Shown piece after piece: positions 1 to 58,998 of a stretch of DNA of 64,000 bases. Position 1 is the first letter of the stretch; each line of letters starts with the position of its first letter. The position numbers were made by a program, and so were the translations under genes. Below the pieces are notes generated by a model. It was not told where the DNA came from and made no database searches. It saw only the letters and a list, made by a program, of their open reading frames with translations. The stretch is from Georgenia sp. M64 (GTDB lineage Bacteria > Actinomycetota > Actinomycetes > Actinomycetales > Actinomycetaceae), in assembly GCF_038049925.1 (NCBI RefSeq), contig NZ_CP145809.1, forward strand, positions 1,860,001 through 1,924,000. The letters are read 5' to 3'.

Positions 1-374
1 AGGCGATCGCCGTCGACGGCCAGCGGCTCAGCTCGACGAGCGCGATCCGCGCGGCGGGGCAGACGATCCTCGTCAACCTCGCACCCGTGGCCTCGCCGTA
101 CACGGTGGAGGTCATCGGCGACCCGGTGGAGCTGCAGACCCGGCTCGCGCGCACCGTGGCCGGGGCCCACCTCGGTGTGCTCCGCTCGAGCTTCGGGATC
201 CGCTCGGAGATCACGGTCGCCGAGGAGCTCGTCCTCTCCGCGCCGACCCTGTCGGAGCTGAGGTACGCCGAGCCGTTCGGCGGTGAGGCCACCGCGGCCT
301 CCGAGGTCGGGGCACAATCACCGGGGGCGCCGACGCAGGGACGCCCGGGTCCCACCGATGGAGAGGGAGACTGA
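1..374 (+). CDS. DUF881 family protein, C-terminal part (5' end outside window)
   Basis: Open from base 3 with no start; the visible ~123 residues begin AIAVDGQRLSSTSAIRAAG and continue with a TILVN-LAPVASPYTVEVIGDP segment, the C-terminal signature of DUF881 (YlxW/YlxX-like) envelope proteins. These are usually single-pass membrane proteins with a periplasmic coiled coil; those parts lie upstream of the window. The tail is Gly/Pro-rich. The next gene (sbp) starts GTG immediately after the TGA, so both are probably co-translated. It matches the first DUF881 gene of the mycobacterial Rv1823-Rv1825 trio. Molecular function is unknown; a role near the division site is only suggested in the literature. 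Confidence 0.85.
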   Translation, partial: AIAVDGQRLSSTSAIRAAGQTILVNLAPVASPYTVEVIGDPVELQTRLARTVAGAHLGVLRSSFGIRSEITVAEELVLSAPTLSELRYAEPFGGEATAASEVGAQSPGAPTQGRPGPTDGEGD

Positions 375-707
375 GTGCTAGCGCTGATCGGACTGGTCGT
401 GGGGGTCGTGGCCGGGGTGCTCATGGACCCCACCGTGCCCCTGTGGCTCCAGCCCTACCTGCCCATCGCGCTCGTCGCCGCCCTCGACGCCCTCTTCGGG
501 GCGCTGCGCGCCGGCCTGGACGGCATCTTCAACGACCGGGTCTTCGTGGTCTCGTTCGTCTTCAACGTGCTCGTGGCCGGGTTCATCGTCTTCCTCGGCG
601 ACCAGCTCGGCGTCGGGGCGCAGCTGACGACCGCCGTCGTGGTGGTCCTCGGGATCCGGATCTTCTCCAACGCCGCGGCGATCCGCCGTCACGTCTTCAA
701 GGCATGA
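375..707 (+). CDS. sbp: Small basic family protein Sbp (DUF1290)
   Basis: A 110-residue integral membrane protein with about three hydrophobic segments (residues ~2-18, 25-45, 55-95) and a short basic tail (IRRHVFKA). Sequence and size match DUF1290 'small basic protein', found in Gram-positives next to division genes. GTG start directly follows the TGA of the preceding DUF881 gene, and its own stop overlaps the ATG of the next DUF881 gene. The DUF881-sbp-DUF881 sandwich is the conserved arrangement in actinobacteria. Function is unknown beyond probable membrane-envelope association. Confidence 0.9.
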   Translation: MLALIGLVVGVVAGVLMDPTVPLWLQPYLPIALVAALDALFGALRAGLDGIFNDRVFVVSFVFNVLVAGFIVFLGDQLGVGAQLTTAVVVVLGIRIFSNAAAIRRHVFKA

Positions 708-1540
708 GCACGACCAGGCACGGGGAGGACGGCCCGGACCGGACGGCCGCGGTCCGGGCGGGCTCCGTCGACGGCGCCGAGCCGGCGGCCGGCCGTGCCG
801 GTGACCAGGCCTCACCCACGCGGGCGGGGGAGCGCGGCGTCAGGGCGCTGCTGGTGCCCCGGTGGAGCGCGACGCACGTCGTCGGGGCCCTGCTGTGCGT
901 CGCGCTCGGCTTCGCGGTGGTCGCCCAGGTGAGCCAGACCCAGGACGACGTCCTCACGGGGATGCGTCAGGACGACCTCGTCCGGCTGCTCGACGACCTC
1001 AACCAGCGCAACGTCGAGCTCACCGACGAGCAGGAGGAGCTGCGCCAGGACCTCGCGGAGCTGCGCTCGAGCACGAGCTCGCGCCAGGCGGCCCAGGAGG
1101 CCGCCGAGGAGCAGGCCCGGGTGCAGGGTGTGCTGGCCGGCACCCTGCCGGTGCGCGGGCCCGGGGTGGTGCTGACGATCCGCGACCCCGAGGACGGCGT
1201 CCGCGCGCAGCACCTCGTGACGATCCTCGAGGAGATGCGCAACGCCGGCGTGGAGGCCGTGGAGCTCTCCGGGCAGCGGCTGACCGCCAGCAGCTGGATC
1301 CTCGACGGCGGGGACGGCATCGTCGTCGACGGCGTCGCCCTCGCGCAGCCCTGGACGTGGACGGCGATCGGGGACCCCGACGTCGTCTCGGTCGCCCTGG
1401 GGATCCCCGGTGGCGCGCTCGCCACGGTGCGGGCGGCGGGGGCGACCGTCGTGCTGCGCGAGGTCGAGGAGGTCGAGATCACCGCCGTGCGCACGCTCGA
1501 CGAGCCCGAGTTCGCCGAACCGGCCGCGCCGACGGGGTGA
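704..1540 (+). CDS. DUF881 family protein (YlxW-like)
   Basis: 278 aa with ATG at 704, overlapping the sbp stop by 4 bp. An N-terminal ~50-residue charged/disordered cytoplasmic part is followed by one membrane segment (HVVGALLCVALGFAVVAQV), a coiled coil rich in Glu/Gln/Arg (DDLVRLLDDLNQRNVELTDEQ), then the DUF881 globular domain with the conserved AGVEAVELSGQRLTASSW region. This is the second DUF881 gene of the trio, like Rv1825. In mycobacteria gcvH follows; here only 84 bp separate it from the FHA gene and no gcvH is present. Exact function unknown. Confidence 0.9.
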   Translation: MSTTRHGEDGPDRTAAVRAGSVDGAEPAAGRAGDQASPTRAGERGVRALLVPRWSATHVVGALLCVALGFAVVAQVSQTQDDVLTGMRQDDLVRLLDDLNQRNVELTDEQEELRQDLAELRSSTSSRQAAQEAAEEQARVQGVLAGTLPVRGPGVVLTIRDPEDGVRAQHLVTILEEMRNAGVEAVELSGQRLTASSWILDGGDGIVVDGVALAQPWTWTAIGDPDVVSVALGIPGGALATVRAAGATVVLREVEEVEITAVRTLDEPEFAEPAAPTG

Positions 1541-1624
1541 GCGGTGGTCACAGGCCGGTCACGGACCTCTAGAGTGGGGGAGGAGACAGCGGGCGAGCGC
1601 CCAGGACCACCAGGAGGCAGGTAC

Positions 1625-2104
1625 ATGACCAGCACCCCGGAGCAGCCCGGCCGTGAGCCCGCGGACCGCCCGGACGTGACGACGACCGCCCGGTTCGGAG
1701 CCGTGGGCCACGAGCCCGAGACCGAGCTGCTGAGCCGCGGGCTCAACCCCGACGACGCCGCGGCGGTCGAGGCGCTCCCGCCGGCCTCCGCGCTGCTCAT
1801 CGTCCAGCGGGGCCCGAACGCCGGCGCCCGGTTCCTCCTCGACGCCGAGCGCACCACGGCGGGGCGGCACCCGAGCTCGGACATCTTCCTCGACGACGTC
1901 ACCGTCTCGCGCAAGCACGCCGAGTTCATCGCCGTCGACGGCGGGTTCGTCGTGCGTGACGTCGGCAGCCTCAACGGCACGTACGTCAACCGCGAGCGGA
2001 TCGACACCGCGACCCTGCGGGCGGGCGACGAGGTCCAGATCGGCAAGTACCGACTCACCTACCACCCCAGCCCCCAGCGCGGCGACGGCGCAGACGCCCG
2101 GTGA
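1625..2104 (+). CDS. garA: FHA-domain regulator of GarA/OdhI type
   Basis: 159 aa; ATG at 1625 has a strong AGGAGG ribosome site ~7 nt upstream. An unstructured N-terminus (~60 aa) contains a TTT stretch (DVTTTARFG), corresponding to the Thr-Thr motif that PknB/PknG phosphorylate in GarA. The C-terminal FHA domain shows the phosphothreonine-binding motifs GRHPSSDIFLDD, SRKHAEF and GSLNGTYVN. In mycobacteria and corynebacteria this protein inhibits 2-oxoglutarate dehydrogenase and controls glutamate metabolism when unphosphorylated. Synteny (DUF881 before, MerR after) supports the call; the kinase sites are inferred. Confidence 0.9.
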   Translation: MTSTPEQPGREPADRPDVTTTARFGAVGHEPETELLSRGLNPDDAAAVEALPPASALLIVQRGPNAGARFLLDAERTTAGRHPSSDIFLDDVTVSRKHAEFIAVDGGFVVRDVGSLNGTYVNRERIDTATLRAGDEVQIGKYRLTYHPSPQRGDGADAR

Positions 2105-2880
2105 GCCCGGCCGCAGGACCCGCCGCGGCCGCCGGGCCGCGCCGGGAGGACCACCAGGGTGCGCCGGCGGGGGAGCAGACCTGGCCCCAGGGCGTCTCCC
2201 ACGAGGCGACGATGAGCATCGGGGCGGTGCTCGCCGTCCTGCAGCCCGAGTTCCCGGCGGTGACGGTCTCCAAGCTCCGCTTCCTCGAGGAGCAGGGGCT
2301 GGTGACCCCGCGGCGCACCGGGTCGGGGTACCGCAAGTACTCCCGTGCCGACGTCGAGCGGCTGCGCTACGCCCTGACGGCGCAGCGCGACTCCTACCTG
2401 CCGCTGCGGGTCATCCGGGACCAGCTCGCCGACCTCGACGCCGGGCGCAGCGCCGAGCACCCGTCCCACGCCCGGGTCGTCACCCGCGACGGCGAGCTCG
2501 TGGCCCCGCCGGCCGGGGCCCGGGTCGGTGCCGCGGAGATCTGCGAGCTCACCGGGGCGAGCGAGGCCGAGGTCGAGGAGATGGCCTCGGCGGGCCTCAT
2601 CATCGCCGACACCCGGGGCCGGTTCCCGGGACGCTCGGTCCAGGTGGTCCAGGCGGCCCTGTCCCTCGCGCGGCACGGCATCAGCCCCCGCCACCTGCGC
2701 TCGGTCCGCACCGCGGCCGAGCGCGAGGCCGACCTCATCGACCAGGTGGTCGCGCCCCTGCGTGCGCAGCGTTCCGGAGCGGCCCGCGAGCGGGGTGCGG
2801 CGCAGGCCGCCGAGCTCGCCGAGCTCTACGCCACCCTGCACGCCGAGCTCGTGCGCGCGGCGGTCGACCAGCTCGGCTGA
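2101..2880 (+). CDS. ftsR: MerR-family transcription regulator, FtsR type
   Basis: 259 aa, GTG at 2101 overlapping the garA stop by 4 bp. After a ~35-residue leader comes a MerR winged helix-turn-helix (MSIGAVLAVL...VSKLRFLEEQGLV, then RTGSGYRKYSRADVERLRYAL) and a second helical domain (GARVGAAEICELTGASEAEVEEM). Corresponds to Rv1828 / FtsR of Corynebacterium, an activator of ftsZ. The second domain lacks metal-binding cysteines, so it is a non-metal MerR protein. The start may lie slightly downstream because the first 30 residues are low complexity. Confidence 0.87.
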   Translation: MSPAAGPAAAAGPRREDHQGAPAGEQTWPQGVSHEATMSIGAVLAVLQPEFPAVTVSKLRFLEEQGLVTPRRTGSGYRKYSRADVERLRYALTAQRDSYLPLRVIRDQLADLDAGRSAEHPSHARVVTRDGELVAPPAGARVGAAEICELTGASEAEVEEMASAGLIIADTRGRFPGRSVQVVQAALSLARHGISPRHLRSVRTAAEREADLIDQVVAPLRAQRSGAARERGAAQAAELAELYATLHAELVRAAVDQLG

Positions 2881-2930
2881 GCGGGTCATTCGCTGCGCGC
2901 CGGGTCGCGGGCCGTCGTACCGTTGGCCGC

Positions 2931-3569
2931 ATGCGCGAGATGGTGGTGCTCGGCGTGCGGGTGAGCGTCCCGGGGAACGAGGTCGTCGTCGTCCTGGGCG
3001 AGCCCGGCGGGACCGTGGTGCTGCCCATCGTCATCGGTCCGCGTGAGGGCGCGGCCATCGCCTCGGCGCAGGCCGGACTGGTCCCGCCGCGGCCCCTGAC
3101 CCACGACCTCCTCGTCTCGATCCTGCAGACCCTGGGCGCCACGGTGGTGGAGGTGCGGGTGACGCGGGTGGTCGACGGCATCTTCCACGCCGAGCTCGTC
3201 CTCTCGGCGGGGCAGGTGGTCGACGCTCGTCCCTCGGACGCCATCGCCGTGGCCCTGCGGGTCCACTGCCCGGTGCTGTGCGAGGACGACCTCCTCGAGG
3301 TGGCGGGCGTGCCGGTCGCCGACGCCGGGCTGGAGACGGCCGAGGACCAGGGCGAGATGGCCAGCGAGATGGAGGAGTTCCGCGCCTTCCTCGCCGAGGT
3401 CGAGCCGGAGGACTTCGGCCGGCCGGCCGGTGAGGGCGGACCGGAGGGCGCTCCCGGGCCGGGCGACGCTCCGGGGGCGGGCGACGCTCCCGGGCCAGGG
3501 ACCACGGGAGACGACTCGGCCGGCCCCGACCCGGAGGCCGGACCGTCGCGCGGACCAGGAGCGGGATGA
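2931..3569 (+). CDS. Bifunctional nuclease (BFN/DUF151) domain protein
   Basis: 212 aa. Residues 1-140 match the BFN/DUF151 family (MREMVVLGVRVSVPGNEVVVVLGE..., RPLTHDLLVSILQTLGA, DARPSDAIAVALRV). The plant homologue was described as a DNase/RNase; bacterial function is unclear. A 70-residue Gly/Pro/Asp-rich tail (GEGGPEGAPGPGDAPGAGDAPG) follows, with a short repeated GDAPG pattern. ATG at 2931 is chosen because the family begins at MREM. Sits between the two MerR genes exactly as Rv1829 does in mycobacteria. Confidence 0.88.
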   Translation: MREMVVLGVRVSVPGNEVVVVLGEPGGTVVLPIVIGPREGAAIASAQAGLVPPRPLTHDLLVSILQTLGATVVEVRVTRVVDGIFHAELVLSAGQVVDARPSDAIAVALRVHCPVLCEDDLLEVAGVPVADAGLETAEDQGEMASEMEEFRAFLAEVEPEDFGRPAGEGGPEGAPGPGDAPGAGDAPGPGTTGDDSAGPDPEAGPSRGPGAG

Positions 3570-3762
3570 CCGCCCCGGGCACCAAAGCTCAACGTTTGGT
3601 CGAGAGTCAGACTCGCCCGGCCGACACGCCTGCCGCGGCGCGCGGCCAGCCTCGTTGACCAGTCCCCTCCCCGGTCATAGCGTGTGTCCATCGGCAAGTG
3701 AGGCACAGCGGTACCCTCGAGATGCGAGCGTCACCCGGGGCCGCGGACGAACGGAGATCCCT

Positions 3763-4344
3763 GTGAGCGGCACTGATGCGACAGCCGGCGCCGTCCCCGG
3801 CGTCCCCCAGCGCGCCCAGGGCATGCTCTTCGGGGACACCCTGCCCGACCTGGACCAGGACACGGGCTACCGCGGTCCGACCGCGTGCCGCGCTGCCGGC
3901 ATCACCTACCGCCAGCTCGACTACTGGGCCCGGACCGGGCTGGTCGAGCCGAGCATCCGTGGCGCCAAGGGTTCGGGCAGCCAGCGCCTGTACAGCTTCC
4001 GCGACATCCTCGTGCTCAAGGTCGTCAAGCGGCTGCTCGACACCGGGGTCTCCCTCCAGCAGATCCGGTCCGCCATCACCGCGCTCAAGGAGCGCGGGGT
4101 GGAGGACCTCGCGCAGATCACCCTCATGAGCGACGGCGCCTCGGTCTACGAGTGCACCTCCGCCGACGAGGTCATCGACCTCGTCCAGGGCGGGCAGGGC
4201 GTCTTCGGCATCGCGGTCGGCCGCGTGTGGCGGGAGGTCGAGGGTGACCTCGCCCAGCTGCCCACGGAGCGCGCCCACGACGATGAGGCCCCCGACGTCG
4301 AGGACGAGCTGGCCCGCCGCCGCGCTGCCCGCAACGCGGTCTGA
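3763..4344 (+). CDS. MerR-family transcription regulator (Rv1830-like)
   Basis: 193 aa, GTG at 3763. N-terminal MerR DNA-binding domain (GPTACRAAGITYRQLDYWARTGLVEPSIRGAKGSGSQRLYSFRDILVLKVVKRLLDTG in pieces) and a small C-terminal effector-like domain (GASVYECTSADEVIDLVQGGQGVFGIAVGRVWREVEG). Orthologue of the second MerR gene in the GarA cluster of actinobacteria. No cysteines suited to metal sensing. The ~190 bp leader upstream (3570-3762) suggests its own promoter, but none was recognised with confidence. Confidence 0.88.
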   Translation: MSGTDATAGAVPGVPQRAQGMLFGDTLPDLDQDTGYRGPTACRAAGITYRQLDYWARTGLVEPSIRGAKGSGSQRLYSFRDILVLKVVKRLLDTGVSLQQIRSAITALKERGVEDLAQITLMSDGASVYECTSADEVIDLVQGGQGVFGIAVGRVWREVEGDLAQLPTERAHDDEAPDVEDELARRRAARNAV

Positions 4345-4398
4345 GCGCTGCCGCGCCCCCCCGGGGCCGCCGGTCGGCCCTGCGGTAAGTTGTCCCGC

Positions 4399-5301
4399 GT
4401 GCCGCACCCCCGCAGCCTCCTGAGCCTCCTCGACCTCCAGCGCATCGACCTCGAACGTCTCTGGCTCGCCTCCGCGGGGTGGAAGGACCAGCGTTCACGG
4501 CGCCGCTCGCGGTTCGCCGACCGGCGGGTCGCCACGATCTTCGACGGCCCGGCCTTCCGGACGCGGCTCGCCTTCGACAGCGCCATCGACGCCGTCGGTG
4601 CCCACCGCGTGGACCTGCCGGTCGTGCTCGGCGAGCGCGAACCGATCCAGGACACCGCCGCCATCCTGTCCGGGGCGGTGGACGCCGTCGTCGTGCGCTC
4701 GGCGTCCCACGCCGCGCTCAGCGCGCTCGCCGAGGCGTGCGAGGTCCCGGTCGTGAACGCGATGAGCGATGCGGGGCACCCCGTGGAGGTCTTCTCCGAG
4801 GCGTTCAGCGTGCTCGAGCGACGCGGCCCCCTCGACGACGTCGTCCTGACGTTCGTCGGCGAGGCCACGAACATGCTGCGCTCGTGGGCCGAGCTGACGG
4901 TGCCCTTCGCCATCGAGGTCCGCCAGCTCTGCCCGCCCGGGCACAGCCTGGAGCAGGACCTGCGCGAGGACCTCGCCGCCCGCGGCCAGCGGGGGAGCGT
5001 CCGCGTCCTGCACGACGTCGAGGAGGCAGTCACCGGCGCCCACGTCGTCTACACCGACGCCTGGCCTGCGGCGGCACGCTCGGTCGGCCGGCGTCGGCTC
5101 TCGTTCGAGCCGTACCGCGTCACCACCGAGATGCTCGACATCGCCGGCCCGCAGGCCCTGCTCATGCACGCGATGCCCGTGCGGCGCGGGGACGAGGTCA
5201 CCGCGGAGGCCTTCGCCGACCCCCGCTCCATCACGCTCGCCGCCAAGCGCAACCTCTCCGCCACGCACGCGGCGATCGTCGAGCGGGCCCTGGAGGGCTG
5301 A
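4399..5301 (+). CDS. Ornithine/aspartate carbamoyltransferase-like protein with altered catalytic motifs
   Basis: 300 aa from GTG 4399 (TTG 4390 is an alternative). The fold of ornithine transcarbamylase is clear: FDGPAFRTRLAF, QDTAAILSGAVDAVVVRSASH, PVVNAMSDAGHPVE, YTDAW, LMHAMPVRRGDEVT. The usual family motifs differ: STRTR of the carbamoyl-phosphate loop is AFRTR, HPCQ/HPTQ is HPVE, and the HCLP substrate motif is HAMP without Cys. True OTCase is therefore unlikely; it may act on another amine or be a non-catalytic paralogue. It follows the MerR gene closely and lies far from arginine genes. The fold is certain, the substrate unknown. Confidence 0.75.
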   Translation: MPHPRSLLSLLDLQRIDLERLWLASAGWKDQRSRRRSRFADRRVATIFDGPAFRTRLAFDSAIDAVGAHRVDLPVVLGEREPIQDTAAILSGAVDAVVVRSASHAALSALAEACEVPVVNAMSDAGHPVEVFSEAFSVLERRGPLDDVVLTFVGEATNMLRSWAELTVPFAIEVRQLCPPGHSLEQDLREDLAARGQRGSVRVLHDVEEAVTGAHVVYTDAWPAAARSVGRRRLSFEPYRVTTEMLDIAGPQALLMHAMPVRRGDEVTAEAFADPRSITLAAKRNLSATHAAIVERALEG

Positions 5302-5309
5302 GCGCCCGA

Positions 5310-5327
5310 TGTCAGACCCCTCTGACA
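5310..5327 (+). other. Perfect 7-bp hairpin downstream of the transcarbamylase gene
   Basis: TGTCAGA - CCCC loop - TCTGACA, 8 nt after the transcarbamylase stop and 58 nt before the DUF2695 start. It has no T tract. Could be a weak terminator or an operator for a dimeric regulator; no decision possible from sequence. Confidence 0.4.
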
Positions 5328-5384
5328 GGCTTCGCACAGAGGTTCGAACTCTCGGTTCGGCCCCGCGAGCCAGGGGAGTGGGAC

Positions 5385-5768
5385 ATGACTGTCGACGACG
5401 GGATCGGCACGCTCGAGATCGAGCTGGCGGAGCTTGCGCAGGGCCTCACCGAGCCAGGTCCGGGGGAGTGCCTGCAGTGCTTCACCAACCGGATGCTCGT
5501 GGAGTTCGGGTGCGACTGCTCGCTGCGGTGGGCACGCCGCTGGCGTGAGGTCCGGGCGCCGCGGGCGTACCGGCTCCTCGAGCGTCTGGGGCGGCGCGGC
5601 GCCTACTGCGACTGCGAGATCTTCCTCAACGGCTGGGACGTCACGGTCGAGCCCGTCGTGGATCCCGCGACCGGTGACTCGCGGTGGCCCGAGGAGGTCG
5701 ACGGCTGCCGGGGCGTCCGCACGGGTTCGACCCGGCCGTGCAGCCTGTGGGCGGAACGTCGGCGGTGA
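5385..5768 (+). CDS. DUF2695 family cysteine-rich protein
   Basis: 127 aa, ATG 5385 preceded by GGGGAG. Three cysteine pairs are visible: ECLQCF (~26-29), FGCDCSLRW (~41-43) and YCDCEIFLNGW (~70-72), typical of DUF2695, a small family of unknown function probably binding metal. The family is common in actinobacteria as a lone gene. The C-terminus ends GSTRPCSLWAERRR. It is separated from the ECF sigma unit on the other strand by a convergent 74-bp gap. Confidence 0.72.
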   Translation: MTVDDGIGTLEIELAELAQGLTEPGPGECLQCFTNRMLVEFGCDCSLRWARRWREVRAPRAYRLLERLGRRGAYCDCEIFLNGWDVTVEPVVDPATGDSRWPEEVDGCRGVRTGSTRPCSLWAERRR

Positions 5769-5842
5769 GGGGTCCCGGGCGGTCGCCACAGGTGTGCGCG
5801 GCGGCCGCGGGCCGTCACCGCGGGCAACCGGCCGGCGGGGGC

Positions 5843-6988
5843 TCAGGCCCGCTCGAGGGCGCGGAGCCGCGCGGCCTGGCGGGTGAGGTGCTCGCGCTCG
5901 GCGAGACTGGGCGTCAGCCGAGCCGCCTCGGCGTAGAGCCGTGCCGCTCCCGCCAGGTCGCCGTCGTGCTCGTGGAGGTACGCACGGACGGCGGTGTGCC
6001 GGGGCAGGGCGGGGTCGAGTCCCTCGAGGGCCGCCAGTCCTGCTCGTGCGCCGTCGGCCTCACCGACCGCGACCGCCCGGTTGAGGCGGGCCACCGGGCT
6101 GGCGGTGAGTCGCACCAGCTCGTCGTACCACTGGACGATCTGCACCCAGTCCGTCTCCGCCACGGATGCTGCGTCGGCGTGGAGCGCGGCGATGGCGGCC
6201 TGTGCCTGGAACTCGCCCAGCCGGTCGCGGGCGAGCGCGGCCTGCAGCACGCCGACACCCTCGGCGATCATCGCGGTGTCCCAGCTGCTCCGGTCCTGCT
6301 CCCGCAGCGCGACGAGAGTGCCGTCGGGGCCGGTCCGTGCCGGCCGACGCGCGTGGTGGAGCAGCATGAGGGCGAGGAGGCCCGCCACCTCTTCGTCCTC
6401 GGTCATCGCGGCGAGCCGACGGGTGAGTCGGATGGCCTCGGCCTCGAGGTCGATGTCGCCCGAGTAGCCCTCGTTGAAGACGAGGTAGAGCACGCGCAGC
6501 ACGGTGCCGAGGTCGCCTGGCCGGTCGAACCGGACATCCGCGACCGTCCGTTTGGCTCTGCAGATCCGCTGAGCCATGGTCGCCTCGGGGACGAGGTAGG
6601 CCCGGGCGATCTGACGTGTCGTGAGGCCGCCGACGGCCCGGAGCGTGAGCGCCACGGCCGAGGTGGGGGAGAGGGAGGGGTGGGCGCAGAGGAAGTACAG
6701 CCAGAGCGTGTCGTCCGTCCCCGTGGCCGGTCCGGGCGCGGGCTCGGCGTCGACCCTGACCTCGCGGCGACGTCGGGAGGCCTCGGCGCGCACCTCGTCG
6801 AGGAGCTTGCGCCAGGCGACGGTGACGAGCCAGGCCTTCGGGTCCCGCGGCGGGGCGGCCGGCCACACCCGCAGGGCCTCGAGCAGAGCCTCCTGGACCG
6901 CGTCCTCGGCGGCCGCGAAGCTCGCTCCGCGGCCGCCGAGGATCCCGATGACGGCAGGTGTCAGGCTCCGCAGCAGGGCCTCGTCCAC
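5843..6988 (-). CDS. ECF sigma factor, group ECF42 (DUF6596 C-terminal extension)
   Basis: 381 aa. Sigma region 2 is seen at FAAAEDAVQEALLEALRVW and region 4 HTH at LTTRQIARAYLVPEATMAQRI; a ~200-residue TPR-like/DUF6596 extension follows (VLYLVFNEGYSGDIDLEAEAIRL, LNRAVAVGEADGARAGL). This architecture plus an adjacent DGPF/YCII gene defines ECF42. GTG start at 6988 with GGAG ~9 nt upstream. It lies in the same frame as the upstream YCII gene, separated only by that gene's TAG and 54 bp. No anti-sigma gene is present; ECF42 factors are thought to be controlled through the C-terminal extension. Confidence 0.88.
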   Translation of the reverse strand: MDEALLRSLTPAVIGILGGRGASFAAAEDAVQEALLEALRVWPAAPPRDPKAWLVTVAWRKLLDEVRAEASRRRREVRVDAEPAPGPATGTDDTLWLYFLCAHPSLSPTSAVALTLRAVGGLTTRQIARAYLVPEATMAQRICRAKRTVADVRFDRPGDLGTVLRVLYLVFNEGYSGDIDLEAEAIRLTRRLAAMTEDEEVAGLLALMLLHHARRPARTGPDGTLVALREQDRSSWDTAMIAEGVGVLQAALARDRLGEFQAQAAIAALHADAASVAETDWVQIVQWYDELVRLTASPVARLNRAVAVGEADGARAGLAALEGLDPALPRHTAVRAYLHEHDGDLAGAARLYAEAARLTPSLAEREHLTRQAARLRALERA

Positions 6989-7042
6989 CGACGGTGACTC
7001 CGTGACGGTCGGCGGCGCCGTGAGGAACGGGCGCAGCTCGAG

Positions 7043-7402
7043 CTACTCGTGGATCGGCCTGCCGCCGGCGCCCGGCGCCGCGGACAGCTCGCCGGCGAGC
7101 TCGAGAGCGCGCTCGTAGCTGTCGACGTCGATGACCATCCACCCGGCGATGAGGTCCTTCGTCTCCGCGAACGGGCCGTCGGTGACGGGTGGCCGCCCCT
7201 CGCCGTCGTAGCGGACGAAGGTGCCCTCGGGGGAGAGGGCCTGAGCGTCGACGAACTCTCCGGCGTCCTCGAGCCGGTCGGCGAAGTCGCGCATGTACTG
7301 CATGTGGGCCGAGATCTCCTCCGGTGTCCAGCGGTCCATCGGCACGTCGTTCACCGCCGCCGGGGCGCCGCGGTAGTGCTTGAGCAGCAGGTACTTGGCC
7401 AT
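7043..7402 (-). CDS. YCII-related DGPF-domain protein, ECF42 partner
   Basis: 119 aa, ATG 7402 with a good AGGAGA ribosome site. Contains the hallmark TDGPFAETKDLIAGWMVIDV motif near residue 75-93. These small dimeric ferredoxin-like proteins are almost always encoded next to ECF42 sigma genes and are believed to be their main targets. It is the first gene of the two-gene unit, transcribed from the promoter at 7452-7478. Enzymatic activity is unknown. Confidence 0.88.
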   Translation of the reverse strand: MAKYLLLKHYRGAPAAVNDVPMDRWTPEEISAHMQYMRDFADRLEDAGEFVDAQALSPEGTFVRYDGEGRPPVTDGPFAETKDLIAGWMVIDVDSYERALELAGELSAAPGAGGRPIHE

Positions 7403-7451
7403 GGTCTCTCCTCGGTTCGGTACGGCCCATTGTGGCCGTGCTCACCCCGGG

Positions 7452-7478
7452 GACGGAGCCGAGGATGCGTTCTCGACA
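7452..7478 (-). promoter_or_regulatory. Predicted ECF42-dependent promoter (autoregulatory)
   Basis: On the minus strand TGTCGA (7478-7473), 17 bp spacer, CGTC (7455-7452). TGTCGA in -35 with a CG-containing -10 is the promoter signature proposed for ECF42 factors. It lies ~50 bp upstream of the DGPF gene ATG, leaving a ~40-nt leader with a Shine-Dalgarno site, so the sigma factor probably drives its own unit. Experimental start site not known. Confidence 0.6.
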
Positions 7479-7647
7479 TCGCCCGGTGGGCGTTCCGGCT
7501 CGGGGCGGCGCCGGTGCGGCCCACGGGTATCGTGCGGCACGAGAACGGCTTCCGGGCAGGTGCGGGTTGCGTCCGCCCGGGAGGGACGGCTCCGCCGGGG
7601 TGGCACGGTGGCGGGCGCCGTCGACGGACAGAGCGCGGGGGTGCTGG

Positions 7648-8073
7648 ATGGCGAACGGACCCGACTTCTCAGGTGCCCAGGATCCCGGCCCGTTCTACCA
7701 CGGCACGAAGGCCGACCTGGAGCCGGGGGACGTGCTGGAGCCCGGCTACAGCTCCAACTACGGCGGTCGACGACGGTCGAGCTTCATCTACCTGACCGCG
7801 ACCCTCGATGCGGCCACCTGGGGAGCGGAGCTCGCGGTGGGCGAGGGGAGGGGCAGGATCTACCGTGTGGTGCCCACCGGCCCGATCGAGGACGACCCCA
7901 ACCTGACGGACAAGAGGTTCCCCGGGAACCCGACGCGGTCGTACCGCACCCGGCAGCCGCTGCGCGTGGTCGGCGAGGTCACGGACTGGGCCGGGCATGC
8001 GCCCGAGGTCCTCCAGCGCATGCGGGAGCACCTGGAGGAGCTGGAGCGGCTCGGGGTCGAGGCGATCGACTGA
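7648..8073 (+). CDS. arr: Rifamycin ADP-ribosyltransferase (Arr family)
   Basis: 141 aa from ATG 7648, the usual Arr length (~140). Motifs follow Arr-ms closely: GPFYHGTKADLEPGD with the NAD-binding His, SSNYGG, SSFIYLTATLDAATWGAELA with the key Tyr, and GPIEDDPNLTDKRFPGNPTRSYR with the catalytic Asp region. Arr transfers ADP-ribose from NAD+ to the C23 hydroxyl of rifampicin, inactivating it. Single gene in the accessory zone next to the dif-like site; no transfer genes nearby. Activity is predicted, not shown. Confidence 0.9.
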   Translation: MANGPDFSGAQDPGPFYHGTKADLEPGDVLEPGYSSNYGGRRRSSFIYLTATLDAATWGAELAVGEGRGRIYRVVPTGPIEDDPNLTDKRFPGNPTRSYRTRQPLRVVGEVTDWAGHAPEVLQRMREHLEELERLGVEAID

Positions 8074-8214
8074 GCGGCCCGACACGCCGAGCGTGGTCCG
8101 TGCTGGAGGGTGGGGTGATCCGTATCGTCGATGGCCGGTGCTCATGGGGGAGCGCCACACCGAGTAGGCGACGGGGCCGGGCGCAGACCGGCACCACGAC
8201 GGAGGCGGGCGGAC

Positions 8215-8400
8215 ATGACAACGACCACCACCGAACAGGCGGCGCTCACCTATGCCGAGGCCGCGTACCTGATGTGGCTGGAGTGGGAGGAGCGGCGCCA
8301 GCGCGACGGTGCGCCGCCGATGATGCCGTGGGACAGGATGTCGGAGCCCTTCCGACGACTGCTGGTCCTCGGGCGCTACGGCAACCGGGTGTCCGACTGA
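8215..8400 (+). CDS. Small hypothetical protein (61 aa)
   Basis: MTTTTTEQAALTYAEAAYL start, then MWLEWEERRQRDG; acidic/aromatic helix with no membrane segment and no recognised family. ATG 8215 has a GGAGGCGGGC sequence upstream, supporting translation. Sits between arr and the pterin dehydratase fusion. Could be a real small accessory protein; evidence is limited to the ribosome site and amino-acid composition. Confidence 0.45.
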   Translation: MTTTTTEQAALTYAEAAYLMWLEWEERRQRDGAPPMMPWDRMSEPFRRLLVLGRYGNRVSD

Positions 8401-8533
8401 CGTCAGGTCCGGGTCTCCGGTCGCCCCGGTCCGAGCTCGACACGCCGGTGCGTCGGCAGGCGCAGGCAAGAGCGGCAGGTCCGACCGCCCAACTGCCGGC
8501 GCTGCGGGCGGGTCAGGCATATTCTCCCCGTCC

Positions 8534-9241
8534 ATGGACATGCTGAGGGGCGACCAGATCGCCGAGGCCGGGCTGAGCGACTGGCGCAAGCTCGCGCAGG
8601 GCCTGCACGCCCGCTACCTGGTCGACGACTTCGGCACCAGCGCCCGGTTCGTCGCCGCGGTGAGCGAGGCGGGGGACGCGCTCGCACACCACCCGAGCGT
8701 CTCGATCGGCAGAGGCTACGTCGACCTCAGGCTGATCAGCGCCGACGCCGTCTACCGTGACGGCGAGGGCACCGAGCACCTCGTCGAGTGGGTGACCCAG
8801 CGAGACGTCGACCTCGCGCGCCGGATCACCGAGATCGCTGCCGACCAGAGGATCGCTGCCGACCCGGCCTCGGTCAGCCACATCGAGCTCGGCCTCGACA
8901 CGGCGCGCTCCGCGACCATCGCCCCGGTGTGGGCCGCCCTGCTGACCGGCAGCGCCGAGGCCCAGGGCCGCGGGTCTCCCAGCGACGAGATCCGCGACGC
9001 CACGGGACGGGTCCCGAACCTGTGGTTCGGGGACGCGGACGAGCACGAGACGCCACGGCAGCGGTTCCACCTCGAGGTCTATGTGGCGCCCGAGGTGGCC
9101 GAGCGACGGATCTCCGCCGCCGTCGCCGCGGGCGGGACCGTCGTCGACGACAGCAACGCGCCCTCGCTCACCGTGATCGCCGACCAGGACGGCAACACGG
9201 GAGTCGTGTGCGTCGACGTCTCGGCCGCGACGAGGGCCTGA
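8534..9241 (+). CDS. Pterin-4a-carbinolamine dehydratase / VOC domain fusion protein
   Basis: 235 aa. Residues ~1-100 resemble pterin-4a-carbinolamine dehydratase: DWRKLAQGLHARYLV, FVAAVSEAGDALAHHPSVSI with the HH pair, GYVDLRLIS, WVTQRDVDLARRI. Residues ~110-230 resemble a glyoxalase/VOC domain (HIELGLDTA, LWFGDADEHETPRQRFHLEVYV, IADQDGNTGVVCVDV). The fusion is recurrent in actinobacteria. No aromatic amino-acid hydroxylase is nearby, so a role in pterin recycling is uncertain. ATG 8534; ATG 8540 is equally possible. Confidence 0.75.
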   Translation: MDMLRGDQIAEAGLSDWRKLAQGLHARYLVDDFGTSARFVAAVSEAGDALAHHPSVSIGRGYVDLRLISADAVYRDGEGTEHLVEWVTQRDVDLARRITEIAADQRIAADPASVSHIELGLDTARSATIAPVWAALLTGSAEAQGRGSPSDEIRDATGRVPNLWFGDADEHETPRQRFHLEVYVAPEVAERRISAAVAAGGTVVDDSNAPSLTVIADQDGNTGVVCVDVSAATRA

Positions 9242-9265
9242 GGAGGCCACCGTCCCGTCGTCACC

Positions 9266-9298
9266 GACCGGGAAGTGGGTCGCTGACGGGGAAGTGGG
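9266..9298 (+). repeat. Two direct copies of GAC(C/G)GGGAAGTGGG
   Basis: Copies at 9266-9279 and 9285-9298, 19 bp apart, about 47 bp left of the dif-like site. Both point towards the site. They could be repeated orienting/loading motifs for the DNA translocase, or a plain duplication; not recognised. Confidence 0.5.
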
Positions 9299-9344
9299 GC
9301 GGTCTGCGGGCATCGGTGCATCTGAGACCCGGCACCAATCCGCT

Positions 9345-9372
9345 ATCTGACATAACGTCCATTATCGGATGT
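9345..9372. other. dif: dif-like XerC/XerD recombination site
   Basis: Read on the minus strand: XerC arm ACATCCGATAA, 6-bp centre TGGACG, XerD arm TTATGTCAGAT. Compared with E. coli dif, the XerD arm TTATGTTAAAT matches 9 of 11 and the inner ATAA/TTAT pair and the 11-6-11 layout are kept. It is an AT-rich island in GC-rich DNA inside a 196-bp intergenic gap. Gene direction flips here (mostly + to the left, mostly - to the right), as expected at the replication terminus. The alternative is an attachment site of an Xer-using mobile element. Confidence 0.78.
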
Positions 9373-9437: not shown

Positions 9438-9872
9438 ATGACCGCACCGACGCTGTACATCCACCTCCCGGGCACCGCACGTGAGGCGCTGACCTTCTAC
9501 GGGGACGTCTTCGGCTGCGACGTCCGGCTCCACACCTTCGAGGAGTTCGGCAGGACCGACGGTCCGGCCGACGCCGTCGCGCACGGCTACCTCGCGGACG
9601 GGCCGGTCGTCCTCTTCGCCGCTGACGCCGCCGGCGACCAGCCCCCGCTGAGGTGTGACGGGATGATGCTGTCCCTGCTCGGGACCTCGTCCCCGTCGGT
9701 CCTGCGCAGCTGGTTCTCCAGGCTCGCGGCGGGCGGCCGGGTCGTGGACGACCTGCAGCCTCGGCCCTGGGGCGCGACGGACGGCCAGGTCGTCGACCGG
9801 TACGGTCTCCACTGGCTGGTCGGCTTCGAGGGCGACGACGACCGTCACGCGCAGGGCGAGCCCGATGAGTGA
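9438..9872 (+). CDS. VOC-family (PhnB/glyoxalase-like) protein
   Basis: 144 aa, ATG 9438. Opens TLYIHLPGTAREALTFYGDVFGCDVRLHTFEEFG, the PhnB-type vicinal-oxygen-chelate start, and ends DRYGLHWLVGFEGDD; HGYL and the final W/G region fit the usual fold. The common metal-ligand pattern is incomplete, as in many PhnB-like proteins, so substrate is unknown. It overlaps the next gene by 8 bp and is therefore probably co-translated with the mycothiol-type enzyme. Confidence 0.8.
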   Translation: MTAPTLYIHLPGTAREALTFYGDVFGCDVRLHTFEEFGRTDGPADAVAHGYLADGPVVLFAADAAGDQPPLRCDGMMLSLLGTSSPSVLRSWFSRLAAGGRVVDDLQPRPWGATDGQVVDRYGLHWLVGFEGDDDRHAQGEPDE

Positions 9873-56279: not shown

Positions 56280-56622
56280 GGCGGACATCCTGCCATCGGC
56301 GGCTGACAGGGTCTCGCGGCCAGGGGCTGTCACGGTTCGCCTGGCCCGCCCGGACCCGCCCGACCGCCCTGACCCGCCCGGACCCGCCCGGCGGCCCGGA
56401 CCCGCCCTGACCCGCCCTGACCCGCCCGGACTCGCCCGGCCGCCCTGACCTGCCCGGACTCGCCCTGACCTGCCCGGCTGCCCTGACCTGCCCGGCCCGC
56501 CGGTCCGCGCGTCGCGGCGCAACCCGGTGTTGACCGACTGGGATGGTCAGATGCAGATCGTGCAGCCCGTCGCGGTGGAACGTCGACCGGCGCGGGCGCC
56601 GCAGCGGCCCGCGCGCGCGAGC
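56280..56622. other. 343-bp gap between mihF and gmk with GC-rich degenerate repeats
   Basis: 56338-56512 is made of short units such as GACCCGCCCG, CCCTGACCTGCC and GGACTCGCCC. Normally mihF-gmk spacing is short. No gene or clear hairpin was recognised. Confidence 0.6.
56338..56512. repeat. Low-complexity CCTGACC(C/T)GCCCGG-type repeat
   Basis: About 15 imperfect copies of a ~10-12 bp unit. Probable slippage expansion. Confidence 0.75.
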
Positions 56623-56964
56623 TCAGCCGAAGCGGTCGACGAGCGCGGCGCTCTGGTGCGGACCAAGGCCTCGGACACGCCGCGCCTCGGAGATGCCGAT
56701 CTCGGCCATGAGGTTCCGGGCGGTGGCCTTCCCCACGCCGGGCATGGATTCGAGGAGCGAGACGACCTTGAGCTTGCCGAGCGCGTCGTCCGTCTGGGCG
56801 GCCTCGAGGACCTCGGAGAGCTTGACCTGGGAGTACTTCAGCTTGTTCTTGACCTCGGCGCGTGTGGCTCGGGCGGCAGCCGCCTTCCGCAGGGCGTCGG
56901 CTCGCTGTTCCGGGGTCAGCGGGGGCAGTGCCACGGCGGTCACCTCGTCGGGTCGCAGGGACAT
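56623..56964 (-). CDS. mihF: Integration host factor, actinobacterial type
   Basis: 113 aa, ATG 56964; GTG at residue 11 (VALPPLTPEQ) is an alternative start and matches most homologues. LPPLTPEQRADALRKAAAARATRAEVKNKLK, helix-two-turn-helix SLLESMPGVGKATARNLMAEIGI. Nucleoid-associated DNA-bending protein essential in mycobacteria, unrelated to proteobacterial IHF. Confidence 0.94.
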   Translation of the reverse strand: MSLRPDEVTAVALPPLTPEQRADALRKAAAARATRAEVKNKLKYSQVKLSEVLEAAQTDDALGKLKVVSLLESMPGVGKATARNLMAEIGISEARRVRGLGPHQSAALVDRFG

Positions 56965-56994
56965 AGCACGGACGTCATCAGCGACGTTGTGCTG

Positions 56995-57023
56995 AACGTA
57001 GCGACTCCCCCGGGGTCCGGCAA
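56995..57023 (-). promoter_or_regulatory. Predicted sigma-70-type promoter of mihF
   Basis: Minus strand TTGCCG (57023-57018), 17-bp spacer, TACGTT (57000-56995), ~30 bp before the ATG. Confidence 0.5.
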
Positions 57024-57249
57024 CGGCTGAGGTTTGCGGTCCTGGGCATCTGAATTCCTGGGTCCTCCGTGGTGTGCCGCTACGACGGTCAGGTGGTGAT
57101 CACGGCTGCTGTGCTCCACCGGTGCATCTCTCCTCATGGTTGCGTGCCTCGGGTTGTCCACACCCGTTGCGCCGATGTCGGTGGGCCGGTCTAGCGTCTC
57201 GTACAGACGTTCCACTCGGTCGGTCGGCCGGTGAGAGGGGGTGGTCCTG

Positions 57250-58998
57250 GTGGCGGAGGCCGTGGTGCCGGCGCAGGGATCGCCCGTGTCGTCGGCCGGG
57301 GCGGGTTCACCCGCGGTGTCGGCGGGAGGGTCGGCGGGGTCGGCAGGCTCCGGGTCGTCTGCGGGCTCCGGAACGCCGATGCTGTCGCTGGGACCGTCTG
57401 AGAGCTGTTCGCCGTCGGGCCTGGTCGCGGAGGTGCGGTCGGCGGTCGCGGGTCTGCGCGCCGGGGCTGCGGGGTCGGGCGCGGCGGGGTGGTCTGATGA
57501 TGAGCGGGTGGCGGTGATCGAGGGGCTGGACGCGGCGCTGCGGGAGCTGACGCTCTACCGGGGTGAGGTTCTCCTCGCGCACTGGCAGGGCGGGTCGTGG
57601 TCGACCGGGCGGGACCGGGACTTCCCGGACTGGCGGGCCCGGGTCACCGGCGCCGGGCGGGGGGCGGCGCTGGGTGAGCTGCAGGTCGCGGAGGGGCTGG
57701 AACTGATGCCCGAGGTCGCCGCGGCGGTGGCCGGCGGTGAGCTGACGCTGGAGCACGCGAGGGTGTTGGCGCGGGTGCGGGCGGGCGGGTCGCGCGAGGT
57801 CAAGGAGTCGTTGACCGGTGCGGTGGTGGCGGATCTGGTCGAGCGGGGCAAGTCGTTGTCGGCGCCGGAGCTGGCCCGGGAGGCGCGCAAGGTCGCGGCG
57901 CGGATCGATGCGCAGGCGGCGCAGGAGAGCTACACGGCGGTGTGGCGGCGCCGCAAGGTCACCACCGCGAGGGTCGCGGGTGGGGGTCGGCGCGGTGAGT
58001 GGTTCCTCGACGATGTCGGGGCGGTGATTGTCGAGACGGCGCTCGACGCGGTGGTCGGGACCCCGGCGAAGGACGACACGCGCTCGCGTGAGCAGCGGTG
58101 GGCTGACGCGCTGGTGATGATGGCCGGGCGGGTCCTGCAGGTGGGGAACGACCTGACCGGGGCGCAGGTCCGCCCGCACCTGGCGCTGCTCGTCCAGGAC
58201 CGCACGTGGGCGGCGCTGCGCCTCTGGCGCCGGCAGCACGCGAGCGCCGACCCCGCCGCCGGCGCTGACGGAAGCCGCGAATGTGACGGCGCTGACGGAA
58301 GCCGCGGAGACGACGGCACGGGCGCCTCGGACACGCCGGCCGGGGCTGTGTTCGGGCTCACCGGCGGGGCGCGGCCTGAGGTCGGCTGCACATTCGTCTC
58401 CGGCCGACCCGGCCCGCGCGCCAGCGGCCCGGGCGCTGCCGGCCCGGGCGCTGCCGGCCCGGGCGCCGCTGTGGCCGGCTTGCCGGACGTCGATCCTGGC
58501 GAGCTCGAGGACGGCACGGTGATCCCGTTGGGTGAGCTGGAGCGGTTGATGTGTGACTGCGAGGTCACCCGGATGGTCGTGGACGCGACGGGAGTGCCGT
58601 TGGACGTGGGACAGACCCAGCGCACCTACGCCAAGGAGCTGCGTCGGGCGGTGACGACGCGGGATCGGCACTGTCAGTGGCCGGGGTGTGCGATCCGGGC
58701 GTCCTGGTGCGAGGTGCATCACCTGTGGTGGTACTCCCGGGGTGGGCCGACCTCGGTCGAGCTGGGGCTGACGGTGTGCAGCTTCCACCATCACCGCATC
58801 CACGACGAGCACGTCAGCGTGACGATCCTGGCTGACGGGTACGACTTCCAGCACCGTGACGGGCGTCCCATCGGCACGACCCGACGCCCCGCGAGGACCG
58901 CTGGGCGACGGCGGGACGGCGGCGACGGCCTCACCCCGCCGCGCTGCACCGCGGACGGGCTGAAGCGGCCCTCCTCGCGTCCTGGCCGCCGACCCTGA
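57250..58998 (+). CDS. DUF222/HNH endonuclease (13E12 repeat family)
   Basis: 582 aa from GTG 57250, preferred over GTG 57241 because GAGGGGG then lies ~7 nt upstream. ~50-residue Ser/Gly-rich leader, DUF222 domain (residues ~70-280), a variable Gly/Asp/Pro linker (~330-400) with DGSR and GPGAA repeats, then HNH (TTRDRHCQWPGCAIRASWCEVHHLWWYSRGG, CSFHHHRIHDEHV). Family is repeated many times in actinobacterial genomes and suspected to be mobile. It interrupts the pyrF-mihF order in opposite direction. Confidence 0.9.
   Translation: MAEAVVPAQGSPVSSAGAGSPAVSAGGSAGSAGSGSSAGSGTPMLSLGPSESCSPSGLVAEVRSAVAGLRAGAAGSGAAGWSDDERVAVIEGLDAALRELTLYRGEVLLAHWQGGSWSTGRDRDFPDWRARVTGAGRGAALGELQVAEGLELMPEVAAAVAGGELTLEHARVLARVRAGGSREVKESLTGAVVADLVERGKSLSAPELAREARKVAARIDAQAAQESYTAVWRRRKVTTARVAGGGRRGEWFLDDVGAVIVETALDAVVGTPAKDDTRSREQRWADALVMMAGRVLQVGNDLTGAQVRPHLALLVQDRTWAALRLWRRQHASADPAAGADGSRECDGADGSRGDDGTGASDTPAGAVFGLTGGARPEVGCTFVSGRPGPRASGPGAAGPGAAGPGAAVAGLPDVDPGELEDGTVIPLGELERLMCDCEVTRMVVDATGVPLDVGQTQRTYAKELRRAVTTRDRHCQWPGCAIRASWCEVHHLWWYSRGGPTSVELGLTVCSFHHHRIHDEHVSVTILADGYDFQHRDGRPIGTTRRPARTAGRRRDGGDGLTPPRCTADGLKRPSSRPGRRP

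Follow-up and report, generated by a model that had tools for sequence, protein, structure and literature searches.

A single-copy dif site and the polar heptamer GGGGGAG in the terminus region of the Georgenia sp. M64 chromosome

A 28-bp sequence in the window (the whole stretch of DNA that was analysed; 64,000 nt, positions 1,860,001–1,924,000 of the 4,183,773-bp single-contig genome, G000:C1) is almost certainly the chromosomal dif site, toward which FtsK is most likely guided by the heptamer GGGGGAG in this lineage. The initial annotation had proposed a dif site here, and the interpretation is supported by the single copy, the conservation, the position opposite dnaA, the genes for XerD, an XerC-type recombinase and an FtsK gamma domain, and the flip of a polar motif at the site.

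The dif site, its conservation and the Xer/FtsK machinery

The sequence and the location that had been given for the site were correct (Table 1). Its division into two Xer half-sites of 11 bp flanking a 6-bp centre, the architecture expected of dif, was also confirmed, whereas the order that had been listed (XerD arm, centre, XerC arm) was not, and a pattern so ordered matched nothing. The minus strand reads ACATCCGATAA-TGGACG-TTATGTCAGAT, with the XerC arm first, then the centre and the XerD arm, and is a canonical dif of the actinobacterial type. No dif match was found in 100 shuffles of the window. The site is located between a gene ending at 9241 and a gene with its likeliest start at 9438. 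An in-frame ATG of the latter gene is present at 9369–9371, inside dif, and automatic annotation may begin the gene there; a start at ATG 9438 is considered more likely.

Table 1 Features of the window and their positions (position 1 is the first letter of the window).
Feature	Position	Strand	Basis or remark
dif site, 28 bp, 11-6-11	9345–9372	-	Sequence, copy number, shuffle control, conservation
XerC half-site, ACATCCGATAA	9362–9372	-	Arm assigned by the E. coli and Frankia order
Central region, TGGACG	9356–9361	-	Mostly TGNACA in relatives
XerD half-site, TTATGTCAGAT	9345–9355	-	Aligned loci
Left-hand neighbouring gene	8534–9241	+	N-terminal part resembles 4a-hydroxytetrahydrobiopterin dehydratase models, weakly (40.3 bits, cut-off 80)
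Right-hand neighbouring gene	9438–9872	+	Matches VOC protein YjdN weakly (26.2 bits against a cut-off of 122)
Left flank, 8 GGGGGAG on +, 0 on -	1–9344	+	All point to dif
Right flank, 25 GGGGGAG on - (12 + 8 + 5, three segments), 0 on +	9373–64,000	-	All point to dif

Compared by eye with the dif of E. coli, which was confirmed in the comparison record, the site has the same architecture; the XerD arm agrees at 9/11 positions, as had been claimed, and the XerC arm at only 5/11. The dif of Frankia alni, which is a prediction (Kono et al., 2011; PMC3025954), has the same 11-6-11 arrangement and the same CCGATAA and TTATGTCA cores, with 20 of 28 positions identical by eye; the differences are in the outer bases of each arm and at two positions of the centre. 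The dif-like sites in four Bifidobacterium records (L096–L099) have both 11-bp arms identical to those of the present site, and the three central bases, which were free in the search pattern, may differ.

As expected of dif, the site is present as a single copy per chromosome. The 28-mer occurs once in the whole genome at 0–3 mismatches, a degenerate core has one match genome-wide at up to 3 mismatches, and the backward-pattern control gave 0 for both. Several copies, or a better dif elsewhere, had been named as evidence that would speak against the site, and neither was found genome-wide at ≤3 mismatches. The core is present in 9/9 genomes of the genus at ≤1 mismatch; eight carry a single copy, and in G003 there are two, of which one is on a 75-kb contig. 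At ≤2 mismatches, extra weak core matches appear in three of these nine genomes (two in all in G004, two in G002, and four in G003), and the M64 genome keeps one match. In the family, the core was found in 195/200 genomes and 36/36 genera (≤2 mismatches), and in 186/188 among the good genomes. Copy number is uninformative in this family search, since additional weak matches occur in many of the genomes and the control pattern also matches in some. At the phylum level, a tight pattern with one mismatch matches 75/148 genomes including that of M64, and some of these matches look like chance. Six genomes of 7.1–9.9 Mb, all from one genus, had no match to the tight pattern with one mismatch; as a guess, they would fit Streptomyces-like linear chromosomes.

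The alignment comprised 40 loci: the site itself, nine loci of the genus including the plasmid copy, and the 30 family loci returned. The inner cores are kept in all 40 loci and the outer bases vary. CCGATAA is present in 40/40, where CGATAA was demanded by the search patterns and the leading C was free; TTATGTCA, largely demanded by the patterns, is present in 39/40 and TTATGACA in one. Because the loci were found with a pattern containing these cores, the kept cores say little beyond the pattern match. The dif of G198 (L136–L137) departs from the consensus, with TTATGACA.

XerC, XerD and FtsK-gamma, the proteins expected with a dif site, are encoded in the genome, XerC under a strict cut-off. 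XerD scored 345.5 bits (cut-off 329.6) and the gamma domain of FtsK, which aligns with solved FtsK gamma domains, 83.7 bits (cut-off 30.6). The XerC-type recombinase matched TIGR02224 best, with 307.5 bits, below the strict cut-off of 335.15, and was above the cut-off of the broader NF001399 (283.7 vs 279 bits). The solved gamma domain 2j5p, which we take to be that of E. coli FtsK, has a glycine-asparagine pair near its end (...GHNGNREVL), and the pair is not kept in the protein found here (L065, ...EGSKAREVL). A review lists a QR-GN motif as involved in the interaction with XerD. Five weak tyrosine-recombinase matches (39.9–67.8 bits) are clustered within 51 kb at ~1.559–1.611 Mb of G000:C1, and the GC content falls to 0.643 at 1.60–1.62 Mb; the ~1.559–1.611 Mb region is perhaps an island of integrated elements. 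Five DnaA-family matches of equal score with the same 304-aa frame (G000:C1 positions 1711367, 1740974, 2145336, 2812593, and 3747781) are probably copies of the IstB-type helper of one insertion sequence.

Position on the chromosome, gene context and strand asymmetry

The dnaA gene is at base 611 and dif at 1,869,345, so that 44.7% of the chromosome length separates dif from dnaA. The site is thus in the region opposite oriC, where dif is expected. The two arms are unequal (44.7:55.3), which was counted against the dif reading, and dif is ~0.22 Mb off the antipode of dnaA near 2.09 Mb. In 6/6 relatives in which dnaA was located, dif is at 45–54% (G001, 45.0%; G008, 51.3%; G003, 49.4%; G151, 53.7%; G165, 51.7%; G045, 46.5%; calculated from positions and lengths). 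The initial suggestion that the replication terminus may lie here holds in the usual sense, that is, an ordinary dif is located in the terminus region, while an exact meeting of the forks at dif is unsupported.

For the gene context of dif, 23 genes of the window were searched by tblastn in 12 relatives, covering 40 kb on each side of dif in three relatives and 20 kb in nine; the labels garA, rbpA and mannosyltransferase were read from the proteins, with no family search. The FHA protein labelled garA is located 8–21 kb from dif in 6/12 relatives, which bears out the remark on garA in the initial annotation, where its region was said to lie far from oriC in Mycobacterium and Corynebacterium. 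Genes labelled rbpA and dolichol/polyprenol-phosphate mannosyltransferase are 5–14 kb from dif in 11/12 relatives, on the side of dif opposite garA wherever both were seen. Several genes less than 2 kb from dif are common only to G001 among the 12 relatives. A rifampin ADP-ribosyltransferase (Arr) gene (window 7432–8073, plus strand; 207.8 bits, cut-off 130) is situated 1.3 kb from dif, and was found near dif in only one of the 12 relatives (G001).

GC skew and gene orientation were analysed in the window and in a genome sample of 44 segments (864 kb, ~21% of the genome, denser around dif), in which 540 genes were called by a crude GC-frame caller. The skew in the window is mostly positive on both sides of dif. 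A sign change near 9.35 kb is absent from both the window and the 44 segments, and its absence is formally what had been named as a refutation of the site. Over the segments, the sign of the skew mostly opposes the prevailing gene direction. The third-position skew, read on the strand of each gene, is −0.187 for plus genes and −0.186 for minus genes on the left arm and −0.181 and −0.191, respectively, on the right arm, and the skew of uncalled DNA is 0.008 and 0.000. Since these values are nearly equal across strands and arms, and there is almost no skew in uncalled DNA, the sampled ~21% of the genome shows no replicational GC skew once the gene strand is accounted for. The missing sign change at 9.35 kb therefore says nothing against dif. 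GC skew was rejected as a terminus marker here because it has no replicational component.

The gene orientation in the window is 8 plus and 2 minus to the left of dif and 9 plus and 30 minus to the right. The strand switch in the initial annotation (12/14 on the plus strand to the left, 41/52 on the minus strand to the right) was thus found as a local trend, but its exact counts were not reproduced and it did not hold as a genome-wide terminus marker. In the sampled ~21% of the genome, the best single switch of gene orientation is at 1.435 Mb, with 1.17–1.55 Mb within 2 lnL (lnL −359.1 at 1.435 Mb and −367.4 at dif; −373.5 without a switch). Genome-wide gene orientation was rejected as a marker on account of this optimum at ~1.43 Mb, and the local switch alone would not place dif.

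Polarity of GGGGGAG in the chromosome, in relatives and on a plasmid

Polar words (7-mers and 8-mers) were sought by comparing the strands of both arms split at dif. The most polar words of both lengths are built on GGGGGAG, which occurs 255 times on the leading and 22 times on the lagging strand in the 864 kb sampled; the ratio is 156:5 for CGGGGGAG in the same sample. GGGGGAG was chosen with dif as the split, and the count in the M64 genome is accordingly partly circular. The sharpness of the flip at dif is not circular, the switch point being free over all sampled sites. The free best switch of GGGGGAG orientation falls between 1,868,147 and 1,871,324, a 3.2-kb interval containing dif, with 22/277 sites against it. 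Polar sequences converging on the site, which are expected around dif, are thus present.

GGGGGAG has the leading-strand bias flipping at dif, the independence of gene direction and the higher density toward dif that are expected of a KOPS-like word. The leading:lagging counts are 108:12 for co-directional genes and 78:4 for head-on ones, with 69:6 in uncalled DNA. The density of leading-strand sites per 100 kb is 47.1 within 50 kb of dif, followed by 33.1, 27.9, 33.1, 24.2, and finally 17.8 beyond 1.2 Mb, a rise toward dif that is not smooth. The one-base variants AGGGGAG (30:15) and GGGGGAC (111:54) are polar by only 2:1 in this genome.

The polarity was further analysed in 15 genomes of the family from five genera including Georgenia (20–40 kb on each side of dif) and, outside the family, in 10 genomes taken from the 75 that had matched in the phylum (20 kb on each side), all chosen for long contigs. 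The toward:away counts of GGGGGAG near dif are 358:10 over 16 family genomes, that of M64 included, and 117:3 over the 10 non-family genomes. The best flip interval holds dif in 24/25 genomes with sites (M64, 15 of the family, and 9 others), of which G233 and G264 have four sites each and wide flip intervals. The sole genome whose flip misses dif, by 3.6–4.9 kb, is G198 (L136–L137). No sites were found in G211, and three genomes that belong to a single genus within the same class had only 4–6. Outside the class of Georgenia, only two genomes had sites, G228 (14:0) and G342 (13:2). In four Bifidobacterium loci of 8 kb, a hand count gave 13 sites toward dif and 0 away.

A test of 4,651 7-mers in the 15 relatives placed GGGGGAG first, with 315:9, and it tops the list in three of the 10 non-family genomes taken singly. 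Among the 21 words that differ from it by one base, AGGGGAG (69:7) and GGGGGAC (98:21) are clearly polar in the 15 relatives, GGGAGAG (81:35), GGGGTAG (39:19) and GGGGGAT (31:16) are biased by ~2:1, and the others show little or no bias.

The KOPS of E. coli, GGGNAGGG, is recognised by FtsK-gamma and is likewise G-rich, polar, dif-converging and denser near dif; the candidate word here is GGGGGAG, which does not match this proteobacterial consensus and on its sequence features is classed as KOPS-like only. The toward:away counts of GGGNAGGG near dif are 10:14 in the M64 genome, 119:89 over 16 family genomes and 41:19 over the ten others. It was rejected as the local polar motif, being not polar in the M64 genome and at most weakly so in relatives. 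In the positive control, the same method gave 9:0 for GGGNAGGG and 1:1 for GGGGGAG at the E. coli dif. The SRS of B. subtilis, GAGAAGGG, was also rejected as a polar motif (26 toward and 17 away over 16 genomes, with few sites). AIMS are, similarly, strand-biased words whose number and bias grow toward the terminus (Hendrickson et al., 2018; PMC5993296), and the accessible text of that paper names no actinobacterial motif that we could find. We found no published actinobacterial KOPS or AIMS motif, nor GGGGGAG in connection with FtsK or the terminus, in the open literature searched, and an earlier description is possible.

The 75-kb contig of G003 (G003:C1, L112–L115; 75,161 bp, GC 0.669) carries a dif of its own at 22,263, adjoined by a phage-integrase-family gene. 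On this contig, 20/22 GGGGGAG sites are concordant with one flip at dif and a second between ~55,443 and 57,869. With dif fixed, 5/20,000 orientation shuffles reach that concordance, and dif is also the best first switch with both switches free. ParA- and ParB-type genes are located at the second flip (56,393–58,475), and TraG/TraD-type and relaxase genes are also present. The contig is probably circular because a TraG-type frame continues through its joined ends (212 codons). We classify it as a conjugative plasmid with a dif/GGGGGAG layout like that of the chromosome. In enterobacteria, according to a published study (PMC11724359), plasmids above 250 kb as a rule have XerCD sites under FtsK control, and 41% of those above 75 kb show significant KOPS clustering. 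Judged by these figures, a 75-kb plasmid with dif and a polar motif is one of the smaller cases, though not without precedent.

Alternative explanations and implications

The position of dif leaves room for a reading compatible with the assignment, in which the dif is real and the forks usually meet elsewhere, e.g. nearer 2.09 Mb opposite dnaA. We consider the chances of this to be about even. The site is ~0.22 Mb off the antipode, there is no replication skew here to fix the meeting point, and Kono et al. (2011; PMC3025954) and PMC13342612 warn that dif and the fork meeting point need not coincide. The motif polarity flips at dif within 3.2 kb, but FtsK rather than the forks may set this polarity, and the flip is thus not decisive. 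A different question is whether the polarity of GGGGGAG reflects leading-strand mutation or codon bias and not an FtsK-orienting signal. The selection of the word with dif as the split in its own genome fits such a bias, as does the polarity of GGGGGA and GGGGAG, although overlapping words must be polar too. Several observations make this explanation unlikely: the polarity is retained in head-on genes, co-directional genes and uncalled DNA alike, it reappears in the 15 relatives that were unused in picking the word while most of the 21 one-base variants are not polar, replicational GC skew is lacking, and the density per 100 kb climbs, if not smoothly, from 17.8 far from dif to 47.1 close to it.

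Xer-using mobile elements exist, and the site might instead be the attachment site of such an element (IMEX type), or a remnant of one, and not the dif of the chromosome. The further dif of G003, on a plasmid contig beside a phage-integrase-family gene, would be in line with this. However, with one copy only there is no junction pair, and the two dif-like junctions that define an IMEX are not found; the core is present in nearly all family genomes, chromosomal genes found near dif here are also near it in relatives, and no integrase was seen among the 23 window genes compared. This explanation is extremely improbable, and it was rejected based on the single copy genome-wide and the neighbour genes kept in relatives.

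With the 28-bp sequence as dif, its function can be outlined by analogy with known Xer/FtsK biology. XerC and XerD would bind one half-site each. Once a dimer of sister chromosomes has formed, FtsK at the septum would load on polar sequences and pump DNA toward dif, where its gamma domain would activate XerD; the crossover would then start and the dimer would be resolved. GGGGGAG, located mainly on the leading strand of both arms, would orient FtsK toward dif and is most likely the word read by FtsK in this lineage. We think it reasonably likely that GGGGGAG, with the weaker forms GGGGGAC and AGGGGAG, is the FtsK-orienting KOPS variant of Actinomycetota or at least of its own class, marking the chromosomes and also the 75-kb conjugative plasmid with dif opposite parAB.

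The dif itself is one more well-behaved member of an ordinary, well-known kind. The polarity of GGGGGAG serves as a ruler that places dif within a few kb and defines both arms in a high-GC genome without usable GC skew. If FtsK reads GGGGGAG, a guide motif for terminus segregation in the phylum would be directly testable, and plasmids could be screened for chromosome-like maintenance.
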